From a virus, in the IMG/VR virus record IMGVR_UViG_3300023179_000637, positions 1-20,021 of that record: 20,021 bases of DNA. The stretch is one strand, 5' to 3'. The notes below the pieces were generated by a model. It made no database searches and was not told the DNA's origin. It worked only from the letters and a program-made list of their open reading frames with translations. Position numbers and translations under genes: made by a program. Below are positions 3,344-10,757 of the stretch, piece by piece (the first letter of the stretch is position 1; each line of letters begins with the position of its first letter).

Positions 3344-4600
3344 TTATTTCTCCATAAATACTTTCTTGCCGACAGGCACTTCAAGGTCTTTGTTATGCGT
3401 AATCATCCATAACAGCGGCGACTGATGCTTCCAATCAATACGTGACTCGACATGGCCGTCAGTAAAGATAATCACGCAGTCCACGTTCGCGTTCTTGCTA
3501 ATTAGGTATTCACTTACGCATGAAACTCTCGTTCCACCCCCACCAACCGGCTTGAGCATATGTTCTAGTCCGGCGTAGTTGCCTGAGAATACTTGTTCGC
3601 CATGAACGTGAGCATCCCACCAGACCACGCGAACTTTGTCGGGATTGACGCTTTCACAGATAGAGACCAGTTCTGTAGCAAACTCAGTCAGCTCTGCCGT
3701 ACCGATTGACCCGCTCGTGTCGATGGCAACAACTACATCCCCGATAGTCTCGCTGATGGCCGAGGGAATATAGATGTCGTTCGCAACCATCCTACGGTTG
3801 TATCTACGCCAAGAATATTCTTGCTTACCATTGCACGCGGCATTGACAAACTCAAGTAGTGCTTCCTTCCAATTAATCTTTGGGTTCAACAGCTCGTCGA
3901 TGCTGCGCGGCTTATCACCGCCCAAGATGCCAGCCAAGATACCGCCTTGACGCAGAGCACCGTCGATCTTTTCGGATACTTCTTTCTCGTCGTAGCCTGC
4001 ACCCGCTTCAATGTCATGCTCGTCAAAGTTCTTACGGTTCCTGATTGCTTCCTCGATGTTGGTTGGCGTGGGATCTGTCTGACCTTTAAGTTGCTTATCA
4101 CCTTGAAGTGAACCGCTATCTTGGCAGTCACCTTGCCCACCATCTTGGTCGCCTTCTTTCTCTTGCTTGTCTTTCTCTTTCTTCAGATAGTCAAATACCT
4201 GAACCACGTTCCAATTACGGAACATGGGATTCCAAAGCCAGCCTTCACCTATGAGAATGTCTGGGGTGTTCCAACGTACGATGATGTCATTGACGACAAA
4301 GTCTGCGGCCATGTTCGCAAGCACCCTATCCTCATTGAACAGCCGCTTGTAGTGTGTGATGTGACGCAGAAACTTGTGACCTACCTCGTGCATGACAGTC
4401 GCCCGTAGCAGTGGCTCATCGCATCTGGCAAGATAGTCTTCACCATAGACCACGTTGATACCGTCGGTGTACGCAGTGGGTACGCCTTTCTTTACTTCAC
4501 TCTTACCCATGACGATGATGCCTGAGAACAGCATCGTCTTCTCGTGCTTCATAAGAAACACATGGGCACGCTTTAGTCTTTCGAGCTGACTTTCTTTCAT
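3344..4600 (-). CDS. putative metallopeptidase fused to VWA-like domain (DUF2201-type)
   Basis: 418 aa. The N-terminal domain (about 1-135) carries a zincin-like H71-E-V-G-H75 motif (HExxH) and the downstream NMAADFVVND helix typical of the putative metallopeptidase part of DUF2201 proteins. Residues about 140-180 are a low-complexity Gly/Asp/Gln/Lys linker. Residues about 285-415 form a VWA-like domain with the MIDAS residues DTSGS (294-298), T357 after GGGG, and D381 in FTDGH. VWA proteins of this kind partner with MoxR-type AAA+ ATPases, and the ATPase gene is immediately upstream. ATG 4598-4600 has AGGAG at spacing 6; an upstream TTG was rejected. Probably an adaptor or chaperone component; protease activity is untested. 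Confidence 0.85.
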   Translation of the reverse strand: MKESQLERLKRAHVFLMKHEKTMLFSGIIVMGKSEVKKGVPTAYTDGINVVYGEDYLARCDEPLLRATVMHEVGHKFLRHITHYKRLFNEDRVLANMAADFVVNDIIVRWNTPDILIGEGWLWNPMFRNWNVVQVFDYLKKEKDKQEKEGDQDGGQGDCQDSGSLQGDKQLKGQTDPTPTNIEEAIRNRKNFDEHDIEAGAGYDEKEVSEKIDGALRQGGILAGILGGDKPRSIDELLNPKINWKEALLEFVNAACNGKQEYSWRRYNRRMVANDIYIPSAISETIGDVVVAIDTSGSIGTAELTEFATELVSICESVNPDKVRVVWWDAHVHGEQVFSGNYAGLEHMLKPVGGGGTRVSCVSEYLISKNANVDCVIIFTDGHVESRIDWKHQSPLLWMITHNKDLEVPVGKKVFMEK

Positions 4601-4617
4601 AGTTTTCTCCTGATAAA

Positions 4618-4634
4618 GAGGGGGCAATGCCCCC
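4618..4634 (-). terminator. hairpin between ATPase and VWA genes, weak terminator or attenuator
   Basis: On the minus strand the RNA forms GGGGGC-ATT-GCCCCC, a 6-bp all-GC stem, right after the ATPase stop codon. The tract that follows is TCTTTATC, not a run of U, and the VWA gene SD comes next. This is more likely a partial terminator, attenuator or stabilising stem that sets VWA versus ATPase levels than a full stop. Confidence 0.4.
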
Positions 4635-4642
4635 GTGAATTA

Positions 4643-5752
4643 CTAACCAAGTAAATGATGATTCTGAATAGCCCAATTCTTGACAGTCTCGTTGTAACGG
4701 CCAAGTCTTGCTTTATTAGATCTCATCAATAAGATGAACCACAAGGTCTGGATCTCAACCTGTTTGATACGATTGACAAACAATTGAAACTTGTTGAGCT
4801 TGTCCTGCGTGTCAATATGATCCAAGCCTTGGAACAACATCAACAGAAGCGGCGCAGTCTCGTCCTCGTCCGGCATCTCAATACCCTCTGGATTCTTGAT
4901 GATGTCATCAAACTTCTTGACCTTCTTCTCCATCTGGATAAATGCACTCATGTCCCGTGCGCCTCTCTCGCCGATAGTGCCAGCCAACAACGCAAGAGTC
5001 ATATCTTCCGGCAATTTTGCATTGACGATGGGATCGCACTTCTCCAATGAGCGAGGAGATACAAACGACAACATCGTAGAGCTTGGCCTGAAGATATATG
5101 GATTGTCATGTTGGTCAGAGTCAAGATACGACTTCATCATTCTCGGATACATCGCAACAGTTGCACGAATGATTGGATTGATGTTTCTCTCCGCAGCCCA
5201 CACCAGCCAGTCTCTCATGCTCGGCTTCTGCATACGTACGATAGTCAAGCGATTCGCGGTGTGAGCAGGCAGTACATCACCTACACCATCACTGCTATTG
5301 TTTGACGTAGCGAGGATATACGAACCTTTCGGAAGCGGCTCGTCACCAACAGTTTTCTCCAAATACATCCTAGTGAATATAGGCTGCAACAGCTTAGGTA
5401 CTTTCAACGCCTCATCAACCAAGATGACCTTGGGTCGTGGGTTAGTCATGTTGAACAAGCAAGAGATGTAGTAGTCCATACTCTTGGACGCATGATTTGG
5501 AATGGTTGCGGCCAAGTCCATCATCTCTTTGTTCGGGCCGTCGATGTAGATGTAGTCGTACTTGTCATCCTCGAAAGAGTCACCAACGTTGCGCCACTTG
5601 TCACCGAACATCTCAGCCAAACCACGGAGGATACTCGTCTTGCCACACCCAGGCTCGGATAAGACAAGGATAGTGTTCGTTGTACCGATAGCGGCGATTG
5701 CCTCAGTGGTTTGACTGATGGTCAATGTGGGATAAGTTGTAATAGCAGACAT
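4643..5752 (-). CDS. MoxR/CobS-type AAA+ ATPase
   Basis: 369 aa. Walker A is SEPGCGKTS (32-40), Walker B is VILVDEA (109-115), sensor 1 is ATSNNSSDG (148-156), and AHTANRLT (163-170) holds the likely arginine-finger region. The spacing and the sensor-1 NN pattern are those of MoxR/AAA_5 ATPases, which act as hexameric remodelling chaperones with a VWA partner (as CobS with CobT, or RavA with ViaA). The first Gly of classical GxxxxGKT is replaced by Ser, which is tolerated in this clade. The C-terminal 180 residues are helical. The ATG follows AAAGGT at spacing 8. The VWA gene lies 42 bp downstream and the DUF3150-like gene 36 bp upstream, forming a three-gene set. Confidence 0.88.
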   Translation of the reverse strand: MSAITTYPTLTISQTTEAIAAIGTTNTILVLSEPGCGKTSILRGLAEMFGDKWRNVGDSFEDDKYDYIYIDGPNKEMMDLAATIPNHASKSMDYYISCLFNMTNPRPKVILVDEALKVPKLLQPIFTRMYLEKTVGDEPLPKGSYILATSNNSSDGVGDVLPAHTANRLTIVRMQKPSMRDWLVWAAERNINPIIRATVAMYPRMMKSYLDSDQHDNPYIFRPSSTMLSFVSPRSLEKCDPIVNAKLPEDMTLALLAGTIGERGARDMSAFIQMEKKVKKFDDIIKNPEGIEMPDEDETAPLLLMLFQGLDHIDTQDKLNKFQLFVNRIKQVEIQTLWFILLMRSNKARLGRYNETVKNWAIQNHHLLG

Positions 5753-5788
5753 GGTTGTTTACCTTTTAATGGTTGAGTGAAACGTTAA

Positions 5789-6670
5789 TTAGATCTTCAT
5801 ACCAAACTTCGACAGAATGTCATCCATGCCATCTTTGACTGTCGCCTTAACAGCCTCGGAGTCACGGATATCTTCGGCGGTGTAGTCCGCAAGCACCTGT
5901 CGAGCTTGCTTGCGAATTGCCTCGATCTTTGGATCTTGGATAATGTTGAATGATGCAAGTGTGTCTATCAATTCTCTCGCACCTTCAATCGTAGATTGGT
6001 ATACTTTAGGTTTACGTTTACCTTCTTCCGGCTGCGAACAGGCGTGTGCGATTCTCTCGATGTAGTCAAGTAGTTGCTCGCATGCGCTAGTCATCACCTC
6101 GTGGATCTGATCGTTCGCTTGCTGTGAGTAGTAACCATTCAGATCATCTACAATTTCTTGAGCGATTGAACACCTAAAATCTGCAAGCGGCACAGGGGCA
6201 ATATGTAGTTTCATGCTGAAGCGATTCCGTACTTCTTCTGCTGATGGATACAGAGTCTGGTCAAACATAGTCCCCTGACTGAATGCCATCTGTGCAACGA
6301 TTGATGGGTAGTGGGTGCAAAAGTCATCGACAAGTCCCTCGTGTTCAGCCTTGTGGTCGTTGTACTCGGCCTTGACCTTCTCAAGTCGAGCCATAGGCAA
6401 CAGTCTCTGCGAGCCAGCCCAGTCAAAAGTTGGTTTCTTGAGCCAGTTGTACACACTCTGCCTATGGATGGTCAGCTTCTCGTGGCGTGGATCACCTGCC
6501 AAAAGGTTTTGGATGAAGCGGCCAGCCTTGGGGTCGGCATTCTTGGCAGTCGTGACCTCGTTGGAGACCTTGCGGTCTTGTCGTGTCGCTGACCAGACTT
6601 TCACCTCCACGTTAATCAGTACTGAAGATGAAGCAAGTGAAATAAGGTAATCAGGTTTCTTGAGTATCAT
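5789..6670 (-). CDS. DUF3150-like phage protein
   Basis: 293 aa, soluble, mostly helical. The N-terminal pattern VLINVEVKVWSATRQDRKVSNEV (about 17-39; W26 and the basic DRKV) resembles DUF3150 proteins, which I recall as being encoded beside MoxR/CobS-like ATPases and VWA proteins. Residues about 50-130 hold helices that suggest coiled-coil packing (KAEYNDHKAEHEGLVDDF). The C-terminus is helical and acidic/basic mixed. ATG 6668-6670 has AGGAG at spacing 7; a TTG ten codons upstream was rejected. The SD overlaps the stop codon of the 29-codon membrane ORF. Likely a partner or substrate adaptor of the ATPase. The family name is from memory and moderately certain. Confidence 0.6.
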   Translation of the reverse strand: MILKKPDYLISLASSSVLINVEVKVWSATRQDRKVSNEVTTAKNADPKAGRFIQNLLAGDPRHEKLTIHRQSVYNWLKKPTFDWAGSQRLLPMARLEKVKAEYNDHKAEHEGLVDDFCTHYPSIVAQMAFSQGTMFDQTLYPSAEEVRNRFSMKLHIAPVPLADFRCSIAQEIVDDLNGYYSQQANDQIHEVMTSACEQLLDYIERIAHACSQPEEGKRKPKVYQSTIEGARELIDTLASFNIIQDPKIEAIRKQARQVLADYTAEDIRDSEAVKATVKDGMDDILSKFGMKI

Positions 6671-6680
6671 GGTGTTTCTC

Positions 6681-6770
6681 CTAAAATGTAATAACGTCAA
6701 AAGTAAATAAAAGAACTAATGAAATGGCTGCGAATACCATTCCCCAACCAACTACAACATCAATGTTCAT
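6681..6770 (-). CDS. putative 29-aa single-pass membrane protein
   Basis: A 29-codon ORF fills the gap before the DUF3150-like gene. After MNID, residues about 5-28 are nearly all hydrophobic (VVVGWGMVFAAIS, then LVLLFTF), enough for one transmembrane helix. The ATG lies inside the last codons of the upstream gene (11-nt overlap), with GAGG 9 nt before it. Its TAG stop is fused to the SD of the next gene (TAGGAG). This is classic translational coupling and argues that the frame is used. Could be a small holin-like or membrane-anchor peptide; function unknown. Too short for normal gene callers. Confidence 0.5.
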   Translation of the reverse strand: MNIDVVVGWGMVFAAISLVLLFTFDVITF

Positions 6771-8024: not shown

Positions 8025-8240
8025 CTATTTAATATCTTTGGGGTAGCGTAGACCTGTGTTCAGGTCAAGCTGACCGGCAAGTTTGGCGAGGGGGATTACG
8101 TAGAGATTGGCAATCTCTCGCATGGTGTCGCACAGTTCCTCGTCGGTTATAAGTCCCGTCACGTACTGATTGATTACTTCTGCAATTACATCATGCTTGA
8201 TTTCAATCATTGTCTGAGCGTCTGTATTGGTCGTAGTCAT
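8025..8240 (-). CDS. small helical phage protein, 71 aa
   Basis: 71 aa, acidic, helical (MIEIKHDVIAEVINQYVTGLITDEELCDTMREIANLY), ending in RYPKDIK. No family recognised. The ATG overlaps the upstream stop as ATGA, with GGGAGG 9 nt before it. The stop lies next to a copy of the dispersed CGTGAATTGCTATT motif. Real by SD, coupling and lack of competing frames. Confidence 0.65.
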   Translation of the reverse strand: MTTTNTDAQTMIEIKHDVIAEVINQYVTGLITDEELCDTMREIANLYVIPLAKLAGQLDLNTGLRYPKDIK

Positions 8241-8449
8241 TTTACTAAGCCTCCCTTGTTGTTAAGACCTGCGAGCAGGTCTCGGTCTGTGATGAGCATG
8301 TAATTGCTCTTGTGCATCGGTGCGATGCACCAATGCCGCCTTGCTTCGACTGCGTTGAGTTCGCGGCAGTCGGCACAAAAGCCGTTCAGGGTGTCTATTG
8401 GGTCAAGCAAGTCATGGCCGCAGTCGCGGCAGTGCATCCATCGTTTCAT
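8237..8449 (-). CDS. small zinc-ribbon protein
   Basis: 70 aa. Two CxxC pairs, C7-R-D-C10 and C25-A-D-C28, give a zinc-ribbon fold; the rest is helical with a basic C-terminus. The start is the ATG at 8447-8449, with AGGAG at spacing 7. A 16-residue upstream extension is in frame but has no SD. It is the first gene of the leftward operon, about 95 nt downstream of the predicted transcription start, so it is expected early and high. Possible nucleic-acid or protein-binding regulator; target unknown. Confidence 0.75.
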   Translation of the reverse strand: MKRWMHCRDCGHDLLDPIDTLNGFCADCRELNAVEARRHWCIAPMHKSNYMLITDRDLLAGLNNKGGLVK

Positions 8450-8492
8450 AGTGATTCTCCTGTGGGTGAAAGGGTAAATAAAAGTGGTTGGA

Positions 8493-8508
8493 TTCACGCA
8501 TGCGTGAA
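8493..8508. promoter_or_regulatory. 16-bp perfect palindrome, operator or leader hairpin
   Basis: TTCACGCATGCGTGAA is a perfect inverted repeat in the predicted 5' leader of the leftward operon, between the promoter and the first gene. It is the best copy of the inverted repeat found upstream of the two cassette promoters. It could be a repressor operator or form a hairpin in the leader RNA. Confidence 0.55.
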
Positions 8509-8612: not shown

Positions 8613-8949
8613 GTTCCAGTTGTTCCAGAAAAAAAGATAGGGTGGTGGAACAAGTGGAACGGGGAGAATTTGAAGTTAAATTGTTGAAATATAAAGGATT
8701 ATATATATAATATATATACTAGTGTAGTGCTCGTTCCAATGTTCCAGCGTTTTTTGGGTTTTCCCCCTTTTTGGCTTTTCGAGGTCAAAAATAAAATTTG
8801 CATTTGCCGCAGACGTTCCATGCCTTCACATTCTTGAAAACCCCCACTATACATTAAAAACGTGGAACAGTGGAACAAGACTAGGTAAGTTCTTGATTAC
8901 AAAGGCAAAACCCTGTTCCACGTTATAGATTTTATGGAACACGTGGAAC
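8613..8949. repeat. array of 12 GTTCCA/TGGAAC iterons around an A/T-only tract
   Basis: Copies start at 8613, 8622, 8646, 8655, 8733, 8741, 8815, 8863, 8871, 8915, 8935 and 8944. Ten of them form five close doublets with periods of 8 or 9 bp, and the orientation changes between doublets. Positions 8698-8718 are only A and T, and 8671-8722 is AT-rich. The layout fits an iteron-type replication origin or a multi-site operator. The stretch 8450-9138 (689 bp) has no gene with an SD; besides this array it holds the promoter, palindrome, terminators and repeats listed separately. Confidence 0.7.
8671..8722. other. AT-rich tract inside the iteron array
   Basis: Positions 8698-8718 contain only A and T (alternating TATATA) and the flanks are also AT-rich. 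It lies between the second and third GTTCCA/TGGAAC doublets, a plausible unwinding element of an origin. Confidence 0.5.
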
Positions 8950-8953: not shown

Positions 8954-8980
8954 TTCACCCATGCGTGAATCGCTAATTAG
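8954..8980. promoter_or_regulatory. inverted repeat 2 plus CTAATTAG
   Basis: Near-palindrome TTCACCCATGCGTGAA followed by TCGCTAATTAG. Same block as at 9861-9888 and 10732-10757, and a copy of the dispersed motif GCGTGAATCGCTAATTAG. Probable regulator binding site. Confidence 0.55.
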
Positions 8981-8994
8981 GGGTTGACAACGCG

Positions 8995-9028
8995 AAAAAA
9001 AAGTGATACCCTGCGTGCAGGGTATCAC
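8995..9028 (-). terminator. intrinsic terminator T1 (duplicate of T2)
   Basis: Minus strand: a 26-nt near-palindrome at 9003-9028 (GTGATACCCTGC arm, one mismatch at the centre) followed by eight U. No gene ends directly before it. It is a copy of T2, about 100 bp away, and may be left from a lost gene cassette. Confidence 0.8.
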
Positions 9029-9051
9029 CGAAGGCCAAAATAGCAACGCTC

Positions 9052-9097: not shown

Positions 9098-9131
9098 AAA
9101 AAAAAGTGCTACCCTGCATGCAGGGTAGCAC
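9098..9131 (-). terminator. intrinsic terminator T2 of the 213-aa paralog
   Basis: Minus strand: a perfect 26-nt palindrome at 9106-9131 (GTGCTACCCTGCA arm) followed by eight U, 7 nt after the stop codon. Strong factor-independent terminator. Compared with T1, an A-U pair in the stem is replaced by C-G on both arms. Confidence 0.9.
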
Positions 9132-9138
9132 CGAAGAA

Positions 9139-9780
9139 TTACTTGATTGACCAGTAAGCCGCGATTCTGCGCTTGGTCAATTCGACGTTAGCAGTAGGAT
9201 CATTACCACGGCTATCGGCGTTCCTCACACGGGTGAGGATTTCATCCATGATCTTTTTCTCATACTCACCGAAGGCTAAGGCTTGAACCCGTTCGGCTTT
9301 GATCCCGTTCTGCGCCTTGTATATCTTTGTCGCCTTGGCAATAAGATCACCTAAACGATTTGAAATGTAGGCGTTGCAGTCTGTTTTCAGTCCCTGTATC
9401 AATTGATAGCGTACGTTATCATTATTTTTCATGTCGTTTAACATTTGCTGGGATATGGCAAATGCTACTGGCACTGAAAGCTTGAACTTTTCGCATGAAA
9501 GCTTTTCAAGTTCTGCTGATGTTTTCTCAACGTACTGGCCGTCAACTATGGCAAACAATCGCTCAGGCTTGATCGACTCACTGTAGTGGGTCATATAACC
9601 GCCGCCAAGTTCCTCACGTTGTTCTTTGTTGATTTGATCTTTGCGCGGGATATCAGGATTGCCAAGGGTCGAGATTCTCGACATGGCAAAACGGGCAATA
9701 TCTTCGAGTGCCGAATTGTTGCGAGCCTGCTGATAACCTGCATCTGCAAGGGATTGAATAGATATAGACTTTTTACTCAT
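9139..9780 (-). CDS. unknown protein, paralog 1 of the control-region pair
   Basis: 213 aa, soluble, basic, mostly helical. It is clearly homologous to the 219-aa protein at 9986-10645. Shared blocks: SLADxGYQQ (about 10-18), FAMSxIxTLG, EQR...GYMT (about 52-64), AFAIxQQxxNDxKxND (about 107-122), NAYxSNRxGxL, GIKxERxQALAF, and LTRxRNAxSRGNDPT near the end. About half the residues match by eye. It is a single-gene transcription unit with its own promoter (9829-9857) and terminator (T2). ATG 9778-9780 has AGGA at spacing 7. Role unknown. The position between divergent early and late operons and the separate control suggest a regulatory or abundant DNA-associated protein, but this is inference. 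Confidence 0.85.
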   Translation of the reverse strand: MSKKSISIQSLADAGYQQARNNSALEDIARFAMSRISTLGNPDIPRKDQINKEQREELGGGYMTHYSESIKPERLFAIVDGQYVEKTSAELEKLSCEKFKLSVPVAFAISQQMLNDMKNNDNVRYQLIQGLKTDCNAYISNRLGDLIAKATKIYKAQNGIKAERVQALAFGEYEKKIMDEILTRVRNADSRGNDPTANVELTKRRIAAYWSIK

Positions 9781-9860: not shown

Positions 9861-9888
9861 TTTCACGGTGGCGTGAAATCCTAATTAG
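9861..9888. promoter_or_regulatory. inverted repeat 3 plus CTAATTAG upstream of paralog 1 promoter
   Basis: TTTCACG-GTGG-CGTGAAA (7-bp arms) then TCCTAATTAG. It starts right upstream of the -35, the usual place for an activator site or for an UP-like AT element (CTAATTAG). Same block as inverted repeats 2 and 4. Confidence 0.6.
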
Positions 9889-9985: not shown

Positions 9986-10645
9986 TTACGCTTTCGCTTT
10001 GAACGCGGCAATTTGGCGTTTCAGTCTTTCAACGTCTACCGTTGGATCGTTGCCGCGTGACTCAGCGTTACGTGCTCTTGTCAGCATATCGTCTAAAGTC
10101 CTTTCTATATATTTTTCAAACGCTAACGCTTGGATACGTTCGCGTTTAATACCTAGCTGAGCGCGTCTAATCTGTTTAGCTTTGTTTATGAGTTCGCCAA
10201 TTCGATTAGAAGCGTATGCGTTAAACTTCGTTTTGACGTCTTGGACTAACTGATACCAGACAGAGTCATTAGACTTAAGATCGTTCATCGCTTGCTGAGT
10301 GATTGCAAAGGCAATATGAACGTCTAGCTTTCGCTTTTCACTAGCTAACTGTTCAAACGCTTTGCCGTCTACCATTTCAACCAAGACCTTGTCATCTGTC
10401 ACTCGAAAGTAACGCGGAACTTCCACGACTTCATTGTAATAAGTCATGTAACCTTGTTTAATTTGGTCTCGTTGTTCCTGTGTCATCTGTTCATTACGTG
10501 AAGCGTTCAAGTCACCAAGCGTAGGGATTTGTGACATTGCGAACTTTGTAATGTCAACAAGCTTAGACTCGGTCTTGCCTTGTTGGTATCCAACATCGGC
10601 GAGGGAATGCAATTTAAGGTCTTGCTGACCGTTGGCTTTAGCCAT
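9986..10645 (-). CDS. unknown protein, paralog 2 of the control-region pair
   Basis: 219 aa, soluble, basic, mostly helical, homologous along its full length to the 213-aa protein at 9139-9780. Best conserved are HSLADVGYQQ (13-22), the central AFAITQQAMNDLKSNDS, NAYASNRIGELI, GIKRERIQALAF, and the C-terminal MLTRARNAESRGNDPTVDVE. The main difference is the variable acidic stretch around residues 70-95. ATG 10643-10645 has AAAGGAG at spacing 6. Own promoter (10698-10726) and terminator T3. The two genes are a tandem duplication that has diverged by about half, so both copies are probably kept by selection. Function unknown. Confidence 0.85.
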   Translation of the reverse strand: MAKANGQQDLKLHSLADVGYQQGKTESKLVDITKFAMSQIPTLGDLNASRNEQMTQEQRDQIKQGYMTYYNEVVEVPRYFRVTDDKVLVEMVDGKAFEQLASEKRKLDVHIAFAITQQAMNDLKSNDSVWYQLVQDVKTKFNAYASNRIGELINKAKQIRRAQLGIKRERIQALAFEKYIERTLDDMLTRARNAESRGNDPTVDVERLKRQIAAFKAKA

Positions 10646-10726: not shown

Positions 10727-10731
10727 GGATC

Positions 10732-10757
10732 TCACGGTAGCGTGAATCGCTAATTAG
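10732..10757. promoter_or_regulatory. inverted repeat 4 plus CTAATTAG upstream of paralog 2 promoter
   Basis: TCACG-GTAG-CGTGA then ATCGCTAATTAG. Same position relative to the promoter as inverted repeat 3. Probable binding site of a shared regulator. Confidence 0.6.

Follow-up and report, generated by a model that had tools for sequence, protein, structure and literature searches.

A two-strand iteron array upstream of terL as a probable phage replication origin with a proposed DUF927 primase-helicase initiator

Introduction

In the P4 genome record, ori type 1 repeats (TGTTCACC) are annotated at both crr and ori, on either strand and with same-strand pairs 9-10 bp apart; the P4 alpha primase-helicase binds the two sites. 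Among the DUF927 helicases (Cch, SaPIbov1 Rep) and the D5-type helicases (Cch2, SaPI5 Rep), self-loading initiators have been described whose targets are short iterons (PMC7581432). SaPI Rep binds its iterons through its C-terminal domain, the SaPI origin lies just downstream of rep, and Cch2 requires the repeat AAGTG (PMC7581432). Such iterons can also come under attack: PLE origins are cut by the Odn nuclease of ICP1, from which variant iterons give protection (PMC8263062).

The origins of uncultured phages are seldom identified. Here we analyse a complete virus record of 20,021 bp (the window, meaning the whole stretch of DNA under study), in which an array of short two-strand repeats lies between genes. 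The array is a known kind of element; its distance from the initiator gene and the repeated change of its word among relatives are new. No published description of this array was found in the open-access literature.

Results

Twelve TGGAAC/GTTCCA words lie in the non-coding stretch 8613-8949 (337 bp). The whole window holds 25 of them against 9.8 expected from shuffles, and the word is not equally dense outside the array. The densest 337-bp stretch in 300 second-order Markov simulations contained at most four words, and a Poisson estimate whose rate is the word density outside the array gives 2.5e-17 for a twelve-word array. Ten of the twelve iterons form five same-strand doublets with spacings of 9, 9, 8, 8 and 9 bp, and a search of the window finds the pattern TGGAACN{2,3}TGGAAC nowhere else. 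The region between doublets 2 and 3 has a G+C content of 25%, compared with 46% in the window, and includes the window's longest A/T-only run (21 bp). The copy number, the 8-9-bp doublets and the A/T-only run had all been claimed in an earlier sequence-only reading of this DNA, and each was borne out; the same reading had called for the expected word count given above. The features are collected in Table 1.

Table 1. Coordinates of the array, its parts and neighbouring elements (window positions unless a locus is named)
Feature	Position	Strand	Remarks
Iteron array, 12 TGGAAC/GTTCCA, proposed replication origin	8613..8949		word count, simulation, conservation in relatives
Iteron doublet 1, TGGAACAACTGGAAC	8613..8627	-	copies 8613/8622, 9-bp spacing
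Iteron doublet 2, TGGAACAAGTGGAAC	8646..8660	+	copies 8646/8655, 9-bp spacing
A/T-rich core, candidate unwinding element	8661..8732		between doublets 2 and 3
A/T-only run, ATTATATATATAATATATATA	8698..8718		21 bp
Iteron doublet 3, TGGAACATTGGAAC	8733..8746	-	copies 8733/8741, 8-bp spacing
Single iteron	8815..8820	-	
Iteron doublet 4, TGGAACAGTGGAAC	8863..8876	+	copies 8863/8871, 8-bp spacing
Single iteron	8915..8920	-	
Iteron doublet 5, TGGAACACGTGGAAC	8935..8949	+	copies 8935/8944, 9-bp spacing
Palindrome, TTCACGCATGCGTGAA	8493..8508		left flank, before gene 8237-8497
Palindrome, TTCACCCATGCGTGAA	8954..8969		right flank
Terminator-like hairpin	9002..9029	-	separates array from minus-strand genes to its right
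Second terminator-like hairpin	9105..9132	-	after gene 9139-9780
TGAACC/GGTTCA arrays, examples	L413 8147-8433; L440 7229-7517; L451 9772-10052		

The DNA upstream of terL was then searched at 38 terminase-related loci, the window included, by a method that presumed no word and accepted arrays only beyond 60 dinucleotide shuffles. A two-strand repeat array was detected at 35 of these 38 loci, some of which are near-copies of one another, always at a distance of 1.5-4.6 kb upstream of terL. The arrays use TGGAACA, GGAACGT, TAGAACA, TTGGAAT, TGTAACA and a few other words. Of 133 short same-strand spacings, 87 measure 8-9 bp, and this spacing is also seen in relatives whose word is not GGAAC. The array and its doublet spacing, whose retention in related phages had been proposed as a check, are thus conserved. 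The three loci without an array beyond the shuffles (L032, L037 and L041) group together; in two of them (L041 and L032) a weaker cluster of TGGAAC words occupies a comparable position. Three named relatives, DSL-LC04, HTVC023P and Pag-Yong1, lack TGGAAC doublets, and a de novo search gave no convincing array in them.

In an alignment of this intergenic region from ten phages, the iterons are kept and the DNA between them has diverged. The second-copy word of doublet 2 is retained in all ten aligned relatives, and GGAAC is invariant in both copies of doublet 4. Doublet 5 is missing in the group formed by L010, L012, L014, L017 and L018, in which many copies have jointly changed to GTTCCG/GGAACGT. 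Most iteron copies of the G001-type relatives have changed together to GGAACGT, which points to recognition in trans. On a terminase tree of 36 phages, some of them near-copies, the iteron word classes (drawn by us, with the weak arrays of L032 and L041 counted as TGGAACA) require at least ten changes.

The window, a fragment of 20 kb, contains no DUF927 gene. Nevertheless, every one of the 11 window relatives of 39 kb or more that were searched encodes a DUF927 protein of 940-990 residues. G001, which is collinear with the window, has genes for PolA, SNF2 and VRR-NUC as well. Since the left end of the window falls at about 22 kb in G001, the DUF927 gene would sit about 10 kb outside the fragment, and the phage presumably encodes one. 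Compared by sequence with solved structures, the G001 and G018 helicases match 8tch (a pathogenicity island protein), that of G018 also matches 5dgk (an active helicase), and that of G016 matches 7ola (a DNA primase). AlphaFold models of the DUF927 proteins are poor (mean pLDDT 58 and 30). Among 11 proteins, no clear covariation of the iteron word with the helicase C-terminus was separable from kinship. As a side observation, the "putative integrase" of L234 (Rhizobium phage RHph_TM3_14A) is related to the DUF927 primase-helicase over 90% of its length, and its annotation looks wrong.

Arrays of TGGAAC also occur in phages with no other relation to the window. A scan of viral contigs for TGGAACANNTGGAACA returned at least 120 loci. 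Many TGGAAC clusters among the listed matches are one-strand coding repeats with long open frames, and these were set aside. Two-strand clusters of five or more words within 400 bp (up to 13 words) are present at 11 of the 120 loci listed, compared with three two-strand clusters of 5-6 words each per 120 loci for a control word of the same composition. TGGAAC doublets are confined to one place per record in 13 records. A gene for DUF927, D5/DUF5906 or VapE is present in 7 of 11 array contigs of at least 15 kb among the matches listed, and in 1 of 20 control contigs, the controls being mostly longer (Fisher p 0.0009). The four array contigs without a primase-helicase, again among the matches listed, are fragments of 15-21 kb.

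Adjacency is also seen: the array adjoins a D5/DUF5906 gene in G016 and G019. Most relatives of the G018 DUF927 protein have a TGAACC array, with pairs 8-11 bp apart, immediately 3' of the helicase gene, and those having a GGAAC array elsewhere are without the TGAACC array. In the set L399-L451, TGAACC/GGTTCA arrays with 8-11-bp pairs lie directly 3' of the DUF927 gene and probably serve as origins in a large group of prophages or satellites.

We also considered whether D5/VapE/DUF927 phages share GGAAC universally, and rejected this: no GGAAC doublet occurs in 13 of 17 such phage records, and the doublets in the remaining four are not array-like. As GGAAC is not general to this class, the link between array and helicase rests on co-occurrence, adjacency and anatomy.

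Both genes that flank the array (8237-8497 and 9139-9780) lie on the minus strand, and the stretch between them is free of genes, as had been claimed; rightward genes begin near 11.4 kb. No transcription unit diverges from the array, and the "early promoter" that the sequence-only reading placed beside it is unproven. Palindromes of the type TTCACG-N4-CGTGAA, each beside CTAATTAG or a similar word, occur at 8493-8508, 8954-8969, 9862-9877 and about 10730-10750, and recur upstream of several minus-strand units of the window. Two copies are followed by a promoter-like TCGACA/TAGACA-17-TATAAG, and the 8954 copy, read on the minus strand, leads into the iteron array. Together with the neighbouring word, these palindromes look like a repeated regulatory unit, and the two that flank the array are probably regulatory sites separate from it.

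Several other features of the window were recorded. The genes 9139-9780 and 9986-10645 encode two paralogues, of 213 and 219 residues, that have no confident family match; a similar hairpin follows each, and one or two copies are kept in relatives. At 3344-6700 lies a cluster of a DUF2201/VWA-type protein, an AAA ATPase and a DUF3150-like protein that is conserved in several relatives. Its first gene (3344-4627) is annotated "HNH endonuclease" through PHROG 1314, whereas its Pfam matches are to DUF2201 metallopeptidase and VWA-like domains. Searches of the window for tRNA genes and Rfam families were empty.

An operator array, in which a phage regulator binds the doublets cooperatively and controls the genes running leftward from 8497 or transcription through the region, is an unlikely explanation. 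The array is intergenic and upstream of a leftward gene block, there are sigma-70-like sites within and beside it, and the small zinc-ribbon-like protein of 8237-8497 is conserved and encoded beside the array in several relatives. However, twelve sites in both orientations over 337 bp would be unusual for an operator, the arrays of otherwise unrelated phages adjoin D5 or DUF927 genes rather than any one regulator, and the TTCACGCATGCGTGAA palindromes, repeated near several units, are the better operator candidates. The sequence-only reading had left origin and cooperative operator side by side. The origin half is well supported by conserved position and spacing, co-occurrence with primase-helicases, the P4-like anatomy and a nearby GC-skew minimum, while an operator explains the wide recurrence less well.

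We regard a pac site bound by the small terminase subunit as more doubtful still. Some small terminases bind repeated motifs, and the position of the array, 1.5-4.6 kb from terL at 35 of 38 loci, would suit such a site. Nevertheless, in G016, G019 and the G018 DUF927 group the neighbours of similar arrays are primase-helicase genes rather than terminase, and in P4 the matching layout is found in the origin, not in a packaging site.

It is very improbable that the array is a centromere-like parS cluster for a ParAB system. The repeats are clustered and TGTTCCACG resembles a parS half site, a likeness that the sequence-only reading had pointed out while noting that no full palindrome exists. The latter statement holds, but the half-site hint does not: the doublets are direct repeats, the best match to a parS-like palindrome has three mismatches and is itself a doublet, and no ParB_N domain was found in 16 array-bearing or related contigs.

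Finally, a chance cluster or an AT-rich low-complexity artefact, for which the only point is that TGGAAC is common in coding repeats of other phages, is excluded by the Markov simulations (at most four words where twelve are observed) and by the control-word scan (three two-strand clusters where the iteron word gives 11).

One further prediction concerned strand composition at the array. Three large relatives, G001, G009 and G023, have their GC-skew minimum at a distance of 1.5-3.4 kb from the array, in an area where gene orientation also switches. The minimum therefore falls near the array but not inside it, and the orientation switch confounds the skew, which makes it weak support for an origin.

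Discussion

Taken together, our results lead us to conclude, with a probability of roughly three in four (0.77), that the phage's DNA replication originates at the iteron array, or that the array is the initiator-binding, cis-acting part of the origin, and that it is bound by the phage's own DUF927 primase-helicase.

In the mechanism that we propose, a phage primase-helicase of the DUF927 type, a relative of SaPI Rep and of Cch from SCC elements, would bind the GGAAC iterons flanking the A/T-rich core. The two adjacent iterons of each doublet, about one helical turn apart, would both be occupied, and the bound protein may then oligomerise and assemble into rings. It would next melt the A/T-rich core and load itself as the fork helicase, so that replication would begin at the array. 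The phage PolA, the SNF2 helicase and the VRR-NUC nuclease would make up the rest of the replication module.

A broader proposal, which we put forward tentatively and at somewhat less than even odds, is that origin and initiator gene are unlinked in one phage family, where the word has changed repeatedly under a fixed position and helical spacing. The family might then represent a natural series of matched initiator-origin specificities, each helicase reading a slightly different word.

The signature described here is computable: a two-strand array of one word, with 8-9-bp pairs and near terL, allows the probable origin to be placed in dozens of relatives, and with it the P4/SaPI kind of origin reaches into a large family of tailed phages. 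As the word drifts while the spacing stays fixed, one can ask which residues of the helicase determine iteron specificity, and also what lies behind the change. The conflict of ICP1 Odn with PLE (PMC8263062) is a precedent for origin iterons as targets between phage and satellite.

Among described systems, P4 closely matches the window in layout. Judged by sequence, the window array shares the arrangement of P4 ori and crr: short repeats in both orientations in non-coding DNA, same-strand pairs, and A/T-rich DNA alongside. It differs from them in word (TGTTCACC in P4, TGTTCCA on the same strand in the window) and in forming one array, whereas the P4 repeats are split between ori and crr about 4.7 kb apart. 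Moreover, crr adjoins the alpha gene, while in the window's relatives the helicase gene is some 16-20 kb off.

The SaPI and SCC origins served by Rep and Cch resemble the model proposed here in combining a DUF927- or D5-type helicase with multiple short iterons; the helicases of G001 and G018 match 8tch, and that of G016 matches 7ola. The SaPI origin, however, is directly downstream of rep, whereas arrays of the window type lie near terL and at a great distance from the helicase gene (in G001, G009 and G023 some 16-20 kb separate the array and the DUF927 gene), and the Cch2 iteron is AAGTG rather than GGAAC. Iteron plasmid origins (Rep/RepA) share the general plan of direct repeats and an A/T-rich region; in contrast to them, the window has words of 6-7 bp in two-strand doublets, and its proposed initiator is of the helicase type instead of a plasmid Rep protein.
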